Shown: positions 59,801 through 63,247 of the stretch, piece by piece
Numbering within the stretch: the stretch's first letter is position 1
Layout of the letters: every line of letters starts with the position of its first letter
Source: Thermoproteota archaeon
Lineage (GTDB): Archaea > Korarchaeota > Korarchaeia > Korarchaeales > Korarchaeaceae
Direction of reading: 5' to 3'
NCBI GenBank assembly: GCA_027491915.1
Contig: JAOZGC010000004.1
Location: 62,001 to 126,000, forward strand
Length of the DNA stretch: 64,000 nucleotides
Program-made: the position numbers and the translations under genes
Notes under the pieces: model-generated
The model's input: the letters and a program-made list of their open reading frames with translations, nothing else
What the model was told of the DNA's origin: nothing
The model's database searches: none

Positions 59801-61093
59801 ATGGCCCGCGTGCACATAGAGACCCACGGGTGCACAATGAACAGGAGCGACTCTGAGATAATGGCCGGGCTGCTCTCGTCGGCCGGGCACGTGATGGTTG
59901 GATCCCCGGAGGAGGCGGACGTCGTCATCCTGAACACCTGCAACGTCAAGCTCCCCACGGAGAGGAGGATGGTGAGGAGGGCCGCGGAGCTGTCCGCCTC
60001 CGGAGTCCCCCTGGTGGCCGCCGGGTGCATGGCCAGGACCCAGCCGGACCTCCTCAGGCCTTACGCGTCGGTCCTCCTGGGGCCGAGATCCTTAATCGAC
60101 GTGGTATCCGCGGTGGACGCGGCCCTGTCGGGGCGAGAATCCGAATTCTTGGAGGACAGGGCGCTTAACAAGGCGTCCATGCCGCGGGTCAGGTTGAACC
60201 CGACGTCGGCGCCCGTACCCGTCGAGGAGGGCTGCCTCGGCGCCTGCACGTACTGCATAACCAGATTCTCTCGGGGCAGGCTGAGGAGCTTCCCCCCAGA
60301 TGACGTGATCTCGGCCGTTGCAAAGGCCCTGAAGGGGGGAGCCGTAGAGATACTGCTCACCGGCGAGGATCTAGGCGTTTACGGGTGGGACCTGGGGATC
60401 ACGCTCGCCGACCTGCTGGGGGCGATCCTCTCGGAGATTGGAGGGTCATACAGGATCAGGGTCGGGATGGCCACCCCGGACTCCTTCTCCTCACTCCTTC
60501 CGGGGATACTGGACGTTTGGGGGGACGAGAGGGTGTACAGGTTCTTCCACCTGCCGGTCCAGAGCGGCAGCGACGAGATCCTGGCCGCCATGGGGAGGAG
60601 GTACACCTCGGCGGACTTCCTCTCCCTGGCCTCGACCCTGAGGGGGTGGGACCCCGACTCCTCCATATCGACGGACGTCATAGTGGGATTCCCCGGCGAG
60701 GATGGGGAGGACTTCGAGGCGACTCTGAGGCTCTTGGAGTCGGTGAAACCGGACTTCGTGAACATGAGCAGGTACGGACCCAGGCCGGGCACCAGGGCGG
60801 CCGCCTGGACCCCGCCGCCGCTGTCGGAGGTCAAGAGGAGATCCAGGGAGCTCCACGACCTGGTCATGGAGATAAAGATGAGGAGGAATGAGAGGCTCGT
60901 CGGACGGGAGCTCAAGGTCTTGGTCACCGAGAGGGCCCCCGGCGGTCGCTTTCAGGCTAGAACGGACTTCTACACCCCAGTCGCCCTGGAGGGGGAGGTT
61001 GAGGTGGGGAAGTTCTACCGCGCGGTGGTGGAGGAGGCCAGGAGCAACTACGTCGTCGCCAGGGTCGTCGGGGGGGCTCACGGCGGGAAGTAA
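59801..61093 (+). CDS. tRNA threonylcarbamoyladenosine methylthiotransferase (CDKAL1/MtaB-like)
   Basis: The 430-residue protein has the methylthiotransferase layout. The N-terminal UPF0004 domain carries cysteines in ETHGCTMN, LNTCNV and AAGCMARTQ. The radical SAM motif is CLGACTYC (Cys145, Cys149, Cys152). A C-terminal TRAM domain follows (about residues 365-425). It adds a methylthio group to t6A37 in tRNA. Its last 16 bases overlap the convergent bpsA gene. Confidence 0.93.
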   Translation: MARVHIETHGCTMNRSDSEIMAGLLSSAGHVMVGSPEEADVVILNTCNVKLPTERRMVRRAAELSASGVPLVAAGCMARTQPDLLRPYASVLLGPRSLIDVVSAVDAALSGRESEFLEDRALNKASMPRVRLNPTSAPVPVEEGCLGACTYCITRFSRGRLRSFPPDDVISAVAKALKGGAVEILLTGEDLGVYGWDLGITLADLLGAILSEIGGSYRIRVGMATPDSFSSLLPGILDVWGDERVYRFFHLPVQSGSDEILAAMGRRYTSADFLSLASTLRGWDPDSSISTDVIVGFPGEDGEDFEATLRLLESVKPDFVNMSRYGPRPGTRAAAWTPPPLSEVKRRSRELHDLVMEIKMRRNERLVGRELKVLVTERAPGGRFQARTDFYTPVALEGEVEVGKFYRAVVEEARSNYVVARVVGGAHGGK

Positions 61094-62133
61094 TCGTAGG
61101 GATCCCCTTCGACCTCCGGGGGTGCGGACGTTCCCGCGGAAACCATCATCAGGACGTAGAGGTTGCTGTAGTAGCCGATGGACTTCCTGCCCAGGGCTTC
61201 GCTTCCCAGCCTGACCCCCTCGGCCACCGTCGGCTCGCTTATCGGGCCGGATGGGGGGACCTCGTACTCGTTGAATCCAGGGTGCATCCGCCACAGGGTG
61301 AAACCGAGGTCCGCCGCGAACCCCAAGACCTCAGCCTCCCTCCTCCCCATCTCATCCGGCAGGTAGGAGATCACCCCGGCCGATCCCCTCTCCTTGCGCA
61401 GGGACTCCCATCCCCTCAGCAGGAAGGTCTCCACCCCCGGGGCGGTGTAGGGCGGATCGGCGATGAAGAGGTCGAACCTATCCCTGTACTCCCGAGGGAG
61501 TGGTTCCCTGAGGTCGGTCCTCGCCACCCGGACTTCCACGCCCAGGGCGTCCGCGACCTCGCCCGTCAATCCTATCACCCTCTCGTCCAGCTCGAATACT
61601 GTAACCTCCGCCCCGGTCGACGCCGCCAGGGGGGCCGCCACGAAATCGTCGTCCCCCATGACGGCCACCTCCCTCCCCCTGAGGGGGAACAATTCACCTA
61701 TCAGCCTGATCCTGCGGTTCAGGGTCTCCTCGGTGCACTGCAGCTGGTCCAGGTTCAGGTCCACCTCTATGGTCGGCCTCTCGAACCTGATCGGAGAGGG
61801 CCCGGAGAACCACCGGTCCAGGGGGGTGACCCTACCGTCCTCCGAGAGCTCTATGAGTCCCTCCTCCCTCAGGGATCCAGCCAGCCTGAGGGCCTTGTCA
61901 GAGAGCATGGGATAGTCCCTTGCCAACTCCCTCACCCCGCCAACCCTAGCCAGCCTCCAGGCCATTATCTCGAACTCCCTCGGCGACGCCATCGAGTTGT
62001 TCCTCCAAGACAGCCTCGCGGCCTCCTCGTCCTTGCCGTAGTGGTCTCGGGCTACCCTGACGTTGGCCTCCTCGTCCCACCTGAGGAACCTCCTGTAGGC
62101 CCGGAGCATGGCGGCGGTGAGGCCCCCACCCAT
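61078..62133 (-). CDS. bpsA: Branched-chain polyamine synthase
   Basis: The 351-residue protein matches N4-bis(aminopropyl)spermidine synthase: a helical N-terminal domain, VAVMGDDDFVAAPLAASTGAEVTVFELDERV (cofactor site), LFIADPPYTAPGVETFLLRG (catalytic Asp-Pro-Pro-Tyr) and a C-terminal FNEYEVPPSGPISEP segment. It adds two aminopropyl groups to spermidine, giving quaternary or branched polyamines typical of hyperthermophiles. ATG 62133 overlaps the stop of the SpeD-like gene by 1 base, so the two are translated together. Confidence 0.92.
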   Translation of the reverse strand: MGGGLTAAMLRAYRRFLRWDEEANVRVARDHYGKDEEAARLSWRNNSMASPREFEIMAWRLARVGGVRELARDYPMLSDKALRLAGSLREEGLIELSEDGRVTPLDRWFSGPSPIRFERPTIEVDLNLDQLQCTEETLNRRIRLIGELFPLRGREVAVMGDDDFVAAPLAASTGAEVTVFELDERVIGLTGEVADALGVEVRVARTDLREPLPREYRDRFDLFIADPPYTAPGVETFLLRGWESLRKERGSAGVISYLPDEMGRREAEVLGFAADLGFTLWRMHPGFNEYEVPPSGPISEPTVAEGVRLGSEALGRKSIGYYSNLYVLMMVSAGTSAPPEVEGDPYDYFPP

Positions 62134-62498
62134 CAGACCCCCACCCTCCCCCTGAGCTCGACTATGTTGTGGGCCGACGGCCTGAGGATCTCCATCAGGA
62201 CTTCCACGGCCCCCTCCGCCCACTCCCTCTCGGAGAAGGAGACCGAATTCACCGTGGCATATGAGTGCTCCGGCCAGGTGTGCACGGCCACGTACCCCCT
62301 GGTGGTGAGGAGGAAGGCGCTCACGCCGTAGGGTTCGAACTCGTGCACGTGGAGGGCCCTCACCTCGTCTCCCATCCTGGCGGCCACGGCCTCCAGGGAG
62401 GCCCTCAACCTCTCCGGGGAATCGAGGATCGACGGATCCGCCACGTCGTAGAACTCCACTATGAGCCTGCTCCCGAGATCCGGCGCGTCCCGACTCAA
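62133..62498 (-). CDS. S-adenosylmethionine decarboxylase homologue lacking the pyruvoyl serine
   Basis: The 121-residue protein has the SpeD fold: RLIVEFYDVADPSILDSPERLRASLEAVA, VHEFEPYGVSAFLL and VHTWPEHSYATVNSV. Active SpeD enzymes have an ESH motif five residues before the IH(T)WPE histidine, where serine becomes the pyruvoyl group. Here the aligned residues are Arg67-Gly68-Tyr69, and the protein contains no cysteine. The enzyme cannot process itself in the usual way. It lies between the MBL gene and bpsA with overlapping codons, so it probably still serves polyamine synthesis, perhaps as a regulatory subunit. Confidence 0.8.
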   Translation of the reverse strand: MSRDAPDLGSRLIVEFYDVADPSILDSPERLRASLEAVAARMGDEVRALHVHEFEPYGVSAFLLTTRGYVAVHTWPEHSYATVNSVSFSEREWAEGAVEVLMEILRPSAHNIVELRGRVGV

Positions 62499-63172
62499 AT
62501 CTCTCCCTCCTCTCCCGGCTCGAACTCCACGACCTCGGCCTCGATCCCCCTGTCCCTGAGCGCGGCCCTCAACTCCGCCGGGGTCCCCCTAAGGACGGGA
62601 AAGGTGCCGTAGTGCATCGGCACCACCTTCCCCGCGCCCAGCAGCTCCACCGCCTTGGCCGCCTCCCTGGGTCCCATGGTGTAGTGCCCCCCTATGGGGA
62701 GCATCGCCACCTCCGGCCTGTACAGCTCCCCCAAGAGGGCCATCCCCGGGAAGACGCCCGTGTCCCCGGCGTGGTAGAAGGTGACCTCCCCCGTGGACAC
62801 GACGAACCCGACCGGAACCCCGAGAGAGGAGCTGTGGAGGGCCTGAGTCAGGACTACCTCGGCGCCCCTCAGGCTTACCGGCCCGCCCACGTTCGCCCCG
62901 ATGGCCTTGGCCCCCTCGCTCTGGGCGTGGTTCGCCAGCTCGAACACGCCCACCACCTCGGTACCCCACCTCTTGGACGCCTCTATGGCCTCTACCAGCC
63001 CGTGGTCGCCGTGGCTGTGCGTCACCAGCGCGTAATCCACCCCCTCGAGGACGTCCATCCCGACGTTCCCCTTGGCCGCCGAGGGGTTCCCCTCTATCCA
63101 GGGATCCAGCGCCACCTTGAGGCCGGAGCTCTCCACCAGGAACCCCGCGTGCCCCACGTACTTGACCAACAT
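62495..63172 (-). CDS. UPF0173-type metal-dependent hydrolase (MBL fold)
   Basis: The 225-residue protein (from ATG 63172) matches the UPF0173 family: MLVKYVGHAGFLVESSGLKVALDPWIEGNP, VTHSHGDHG, FYHAGDTGVF and PMHYGTFPV give the full MBL metal site. The substrate is unknown. ATG 63172 follows GGTGATC with a 6-base spacer; GTG 63184 is an alternative. It heads the operon UPF0173-SpeD-like-bpsA, with a TATA-like CTAAATTAT on the minus strand at 63208-63216. Confidence 0.87.
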   Translation of the reverse strand: MLVKYVGHAGFLVESSGLKVALDPWIEGNPSAAKGNVGMDVLEGVDYALVTHSHGDHGLVEAIEASKRWGTEVVGVFELANHAQSEGAKAIGANVGGPVSLRGAEVVLTQALHSSSLGVPVGFVVSTGEVTFYHAGDTGVFPGMALLGELYRPEVAMLPIGGHYTMGPREAAKAVELLGAGKVVPMHYGTFPVLRGTPAELRAALRDRGIEAEVVEFEPGEEGEI

Positions 63173-63247
63173 CCTCCGGATCACCTGGCGTCATCCACCG
63201 GCCCGCCATAATTTAGGCTAGCCGGCTCCGACCGTTCCCCAGAATAG

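Follow-up and report, generated by a model that had tools for sequence, protein, structure and literature searches.

What can a SpeD protein do once it has lost the serine from which its pyruvoyl group would be made? The question is raised by an open reading frame in the window, the 64,000-nucleotide stretch of a Korarchaeota contig that was analysed here. Its product (named A below; Table 1) matches the Pfam family AdoMet_dc (PF02675; 75.3 bits, cut-off 25, E 5.6e-21), and scores 67.1 for the NCBIfam SpeD equivalog, under the cut-off of 75.65. The nearest solved relative by sequence is the AdoMetDC of T. maritima (E 8e-13). In the alignment to this enzyme Ser63 is replaced by Gly68 and Cys83 by Phe88, and Ser55 and His68 are kept as S60 and H73. 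The AlphaFold model of A, based on 13 homologues, is a complete SpeD fold (pLDDT 90.1) and has 1tmi as its top Foldseek match (TM 0.82/0.84). The original prediction, that glycine stands in place of the pyruvoyl serine and the catalytic cysteine is gone while the rest of the fold is kept, is thus borne out. Of the features of a class 1b AdoMetDC (SpeD), A has the domain, the fold and His68, and lacks S63 and Cys83. Judging from its sequence, the window ORF is a class 1b AdoMetDC/SpeD homologue that is unable to form its own pyruvoyl group.

Table 1. Features of the A locus, with positions in the window.
Feature	Position	Strand	Remarks
Paralogue A, SpeD/AdoMetDC-fold subunit without pyruvoyl serine	62133..62498	-	121 aa, TTG start
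Gly68 codon (GGG) of A, where T. maritima has pyruvoyl Ser63	62295..62297	-	
Phe88 codon of A, at the position of catalytic Cys83	62235..62237	-	F/Y in 21/21 A rows
His73 codon of A, equivalent to T. maritima His68 / human His243	62280..62282	-	Invariant in 21/21 A rows
Ser60 codon of A, equivalent to T. maritima Ser55 / human Ser229	62319..62321	-	Invariant in 21/21 A rows
bpsA-like gene, divergent, BpsA_C domain	61078..62133	-	351 aa; downstream of A
UPF0173-type metal-dependent (MBL-fold) hydrolase gene	62495..63184	-	Upstream of A

The loss could mean that the gene copy is decaying or has no function, or that an error was made in assembly or sequencing; a sequencing error had been named as a way in which the prediction might fail. 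Nothing beyond the missing serine and cysteine favours this explanation. The survey of homologues that had been proposed as a check found 21 distinct intact A sequences from at least four genera, with invariant motifs and with glycine at the serine position in 21/21 of these Korarchaeota proteins. The dN/dS of A is 0.02-0.28 in the informative pairs, well below 1 in most of the pairs compared (one very close pair gives 0.49), and that of B, the paralogue described below, is 0.06-0.16. A is under purifying selection. Its conservation rules out a sequencing error or a pseudogene, so that we give decay or error a negligible probability and regard A as a conserved and probably functional gene.

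The window genome encodes two SpeD homologues only. The second PF02675 gene (B) is found on another contig (G000 C2:27409-27711; L001:1471-1860), and its product also folds as SpeD according to its structure model and Foldseek. B has S63 and Cys83, the two class 1b features that are missing from A. Ca. Methanodesulfokora, of the Korarchaeota, is among the relatives. Of 24 genomes of the family, 18 carry both A and B, three carry A only and three carry neither in full length; A is present in 18/18 Korarchaeota genomes with a full-length B. The A-only genomes (G014, G021, and G022) are all drafts. In genus g4, B is usually located ~25.5 kb upstream of A. At this distance, as judged from related complete contigs, the expected B site of the three drafts falls beyond the contig end, and B may therefore simply be unassembled. 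The two genes are on separate contigs in the window genome; across the genomes they are unlinked or ~26 kb apart, and do not share an operon. The search for an active SpeD elsewhere in the genome, which had also been suggested, is thereby answered in part: B has the cleavable serine and the catalytic cysteine, but it is incomplete in its own way (F49, S55, and H68). This paralogue, absent from the original prediction, offers an explanation for the lost serine of A.

We compared the residues at seven sites that are known from human AdoMetDC (49, 55, 62, 63, 68, 72, and 83 in T. maritima numbering) across 21 distinct A-type rows, 17 distinct B-type rows and canonical archaeal SpeDs. A-type proteins retain F49, S55, H68, and E72 in 21/21 rows each, S63 is Gly in 21/21, C83 is Phe or Tyr in 21/21, and E62 is variable. 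B-type proteins retain E62, S63, H64, and C83 in 17/17 rows each, while F49 and S55 are found in none of the 17, H68 in 13 and E72 in seven. The H68 position of B is Thr in the window genome and Arg in g5. In the canonical archaeal SpeDs, S63, H68, and C83 are all conserved at 100%, and G025 (L003) and G027 (L005), from the same class and phylum, encode canonical proteins that keep all three. In human AdoMetDC the N-half carries E67/S68/C82 and the C-half F223/S229/H243/E247 (positions checked in the sequence). By residue content, A is the holder of the human C-half set and B of the N-half set. By simple counting that ignores relatedness, the chance that the three losses of A make up exactly the N-set is 1/35, and the chance that the four lost or variable sites of B make up exactly the C-set is likewise 1/35. 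The same register is reproduced independently by hhalign, which aligns A with the human C-half (E 1.9e-4) and pairs F54/F223, S60/S229, H73/H243, and E77/E247. No hhalign match was obtained for A against the human N-half, or for B against either human half; the putative assignment of B to the N-half is based on its residues, without a sequence match. The A and B pair displays one feature of eukaryotic class 2 enzymes, two SpeD-fold halves with the N-set and C-set partitioned between them.

From these patterns we infer that A and B are probably the two chains of an obligate AdoMetDC heterodimer whose single active site is a composite of both; A would be the non-cleaving subunit, B would be processed in trans and AdoMet would be the substrate. 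B would supply S63 (the future pyruvoyl group), its neighbour E62 and the catalytic cysteine, C83. A would supply H68 and S55 in trans, assisting the self-cleavage of the serine of B, as well as F49 and E72 for binding of the adenosyl moiety. We expect A and B to meet face to face, as do the two chains of the bacterial homodimer or the eukaryotic halves, but to have one working active site per dimer instead of two. The trans geometry is deduced from the human halves and from published descriptions. Packing through the faces of the beta-sheets is common to the bacterial half-enzymes and the eukaryotic monomer (PMC5201418), and the eukaryotic enzyme is a face-to-face fusion of two folds of the bacterial type (PMC5201418; PMC10407285). 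In the bacterial dimer, each chain would by homology complete the other in trans. His68/His243 acts in ester cleavage during processing (PMC3975893). In the human enzyme, S229A abolishes processing and H243A halts it at the ester made by S68, which shows that C-half residues act on the serine of the N-half (PMC3975893).

Two observations bear on how strictly B would depend on A. H68 is still His in 13/17 distinct B rows, which counts against a split enzyme, and a B homodimer might consequently be able to process itself in genus g4. In addition, T. maritima S55A still self-processes, so the loss of S55 alone is not disabling (PMC3975893). The location of the two genes, outside a common operon, also speaks against the model.

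An inactive paralogue that accompanies an active one also recalls the prozyme of trypanosomatids, an idea put forward in the original prediction. According to this explanation B would be a complete enzyme, as a homodimer or monomer, and A only an allosteric activator or stabiliser. The trypanosome precedent is solid (PMC5201418), and A resembles the prozyme in that it lacks pyruvoyl capacity, is under selection, always accompanies B and is expected to be needed by it. However, the trypanosome AdoMetDC retains both halves of its own active site, whereas F49 and S55 are missing from every B row, and H68 from B of the window genome and of genus g5, so that B alone is incomplete. These missing residues are kept in A at 100%, and an allosteric partner would have no need of them. 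The prozyme, moreover, derives from a whole fused eukaryotic enzyme and acts allosterically via a separate dimerisation domain, without completing the active site (PMC5201418). We therefore consider a prozyme-like regulator unlikely. The part of the idea that stands is that A probably acts through a partner, B, encoded in the same genome; allostery beside a complete enzyme is not supported. Since B lacks S55 and F49 (and H68 here) and A keeps exactly these residues, the partnership points to a shared active site, and a split active site appears the more likely mechanism.

The gene order around A suggested another partner. The stop codon of A overlaps the start codon of the downstream bpsA-like gene (TGATG), which agrees with the overlap originally described. 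It had been proposed that A could bind or deliver substrate for BpsA. A would then be a dimerisation or substrate-delivery domain for BpsA, similar to the dead AdoMetDC-like domain at the N-terminus of human spermine synthase. The adjacency recurs in G001 and G005, and in the Foldseek search human spermine synthase is the next match of A after the SpeDs. But A has bpsA as its neighbour in g1 and g2 only (BpsA_C matches above the cut-off), which indicates that the conserved role of A is not tied to BpsA; in the g4 and g5 genomes, which carry A with the same invariant residues, no BpsA_C match above the cut-off was found. The retained catalytic H68 and S55 would also be of no use in a dimerisation domain. 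As most A-bearing genomes lack bpsA, a BpsA-specific partnership is ruled out as the general role of A, and we consider a BpsA partner domain very unlikely. Under the heterodimer model, co-transcription at this locus would couple the supply of decarboxylated AdoMet to its user BpsA, and the product could feed the co-transcribed BpsA in the window genus and the neighbouring genus.

Several features of the neighbouring genes were recorded. The bpsA-like protein is divergent, with 108.7 bits to a partial BpsA_C domain and no NCBIfam match, and its product may differ from those of known BpsA proteins. On the other side, the start of A overlaps the stop of the UPF0173 hydrolase gene (TTGA). A UPF0173-type gene directly precedes A in 10/10 of the loci examined, in most cases with an overlap or close to one, and is found there in genera with and without bpsA. 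The B loci have a constant setting of their own. In 12/12 B loci compared, B directly follows, on its own strand, the gene for a conserved protein of ~350 aa with no Pfam match (L001:158-1237, + strand). A cas6-type gene (L001:1881-2714, - strand) is convergent and just downstream of B, with a homologue there in all 12 of these loci. Human spermine synthase ranks next after the bacterial SpeDs in the Foldseek results of both the A and B models, in line with the AdoMetDC-like domain present in that enzyme.

Decarboxylated AdoMet made by A and B would feed the spermidine-synthase homologue of the genome. A homologue of this enzyme, over or nearly over the cut-off, is present in the window genome and in 13/15 other family genomes scanned; g3 genomes without A and B have either no match or a weak one. 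Agmatinase was detected in all genomes scanned. The window genome also encodes an AAT-fold Orn/Lys/Arg decarboxylase homologue (OKR_DC_1, G000:C4:506849-507631). Given the spermidine-synthase homologue, the universal agmatinase and the OKR_DC_1 homologue, A and B are the only candidate AdoMetDC of the genome, and a role as arginine decarboxylase is not needed. OKR_DC_1 homologues were also found in g2 and g5, with no match over the cut-off in the g4 genomes scanned; most g4 genomes have only PF02784 homologues. The family seems to have swapped its source of agmatine or putrescine.

The pair could instead be a neofunctionalised arginine or ornithine decarboxylase of the SpeDA/SpeDC type, and not an AdoMetDC. 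SpeD became ADC or ODC several times, Crenarchaeota included (PMC10407285), the crenarchaeal and bacterial SpeDA/SpeDC paralogues are likewise second SpeD copies in their genomes, and the pyruvoyl ADC PF01862 is missing from all genomes of the family scanned except G014. Yet SpeDA/SpeDC proteins keep S63, H68, and C83 and are self-processing, whereas A lacks S63 and C83. The spermidine-synthase homologue requires decarboxylated AdoMet and the genome has no other SpeD to provide it, and the equivalents of the adenosyl-binding residues F49 and E72 are retained in A. The decarboxylation of amino acids could be covered by homologues of other families, predicted as OKR_DC_1 in G000, G001, G004, G005, G008, and G010 and as PF02784 in most g4 genomes. 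We regard a change of substrate as improbable.

A and B have a single origin. The A, B and canonical SpeD sequences each form one group in a 73-row tree, and a support of 97/90 unites A with B. Both are long branches; when either is left out, the remaining one stays a single group outside the canonical SpeDs, its exact position being weak. These results fit best with a single duplication in the korarchaeal lineage and subsequent reciprocal loss. No A-type (Gly) SpeD outside Korarchaeota was detected among the genome, virus and phage matches listed. A scan of genome contigs gave 72 non-korarchaeal sequences among the best 80 matches, which were extracted; the displayed centres of these SpeDs are all canonical ESH or xSH, with a few rows showing the wrong stretch. 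S63/H68/C83 are present in all of 20 archaeal and 72 viral SpeDs, the archaeal search covering one phylum with 36 genomes. No B-type SpeD was found in viral contigs, and the phage relatives of A are only distant annotated SpeDs. A literature search, with subscription papers outside its scope, found no publication linking Korarchaeota to AdoMetDC.

The best structural and sequence matches of both A and B are with class 1b AdoMetDC (T. maritima TM0655, PDB 1tmi/1tlu, PF02675), with which they share fold and family. In that enzyme two identical, self-sufficient chains form a dimer in which both active sites are equivalent, whereas the korarchaeal residues are divided between two gene products. 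The same division of labour is found in human AMD1 (class 2, PF01536), where each pair of SpeD folds has a single active site. In eukaryotes, however, a single chain comprises both halves together with a dimerisation insert, whereas A and B are separate, distant genes, detected by PF02675 and not by PF01536. The latter gave no match in 25 genomes, but the control genomes gave none either, so that this search carries no information by itself. It is very doubtful that the pair is a true relative of the eukaryotic class 2 halves, an archaeal pair that was later fused. Because canonical SpeD likewise matches the human C-half weakly in the profile comparison, and because the tree places A with B, convergence with the eukaryotic halves appears much more likely than common descent.

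Bacterial SpeD-SpeDC fusions are also cases of two SpeD folds acting together, and in the degenerate fusion of Victivallis vadensis one fold lacks the self-cleavage site and at least two critical residues, like A (PMC10407285). These fusions are single ORFs of bacteria whose N-terminal domain is a bona fide AdoMetDC (PMC10407285), whereas A and B are separate. The reciprocal loss in the active copy, seen in B, is not described for SpeD-SpeDC fusions, and no SpeD fusion was detected in archaea (PMC10407285). If the heterodimer is real, the self-cleaving serine of a pyruvoyl enzyme and the residues that drive its cleavage are located on two separately encoded proteins. The pair would then be a living, unfused counterpart of an assumed step in the origin of the eukaryotic enzyme, in which duplication is followed by reciprocal loss of one of two active sites and then by fusion. 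The proposed order is fusion first and decay of one domain later (PMC10407285); the korarchaeal pair suggests that reciprocal active-site loss is possible without fusion. It would also be a warning for annotation, since the Gly paralogue would not be an inactive pseudoenzyme, nor B a self-sufficient SpeD.

Finally, the draft genome G006, in which A was not found, encodes a short divergent B-like SpeD (QSHLSFETWPE..., SCKE; L041:2083-2433, + strand) that adjoins an ORF resembling a plasmid or phage primase/helicase.
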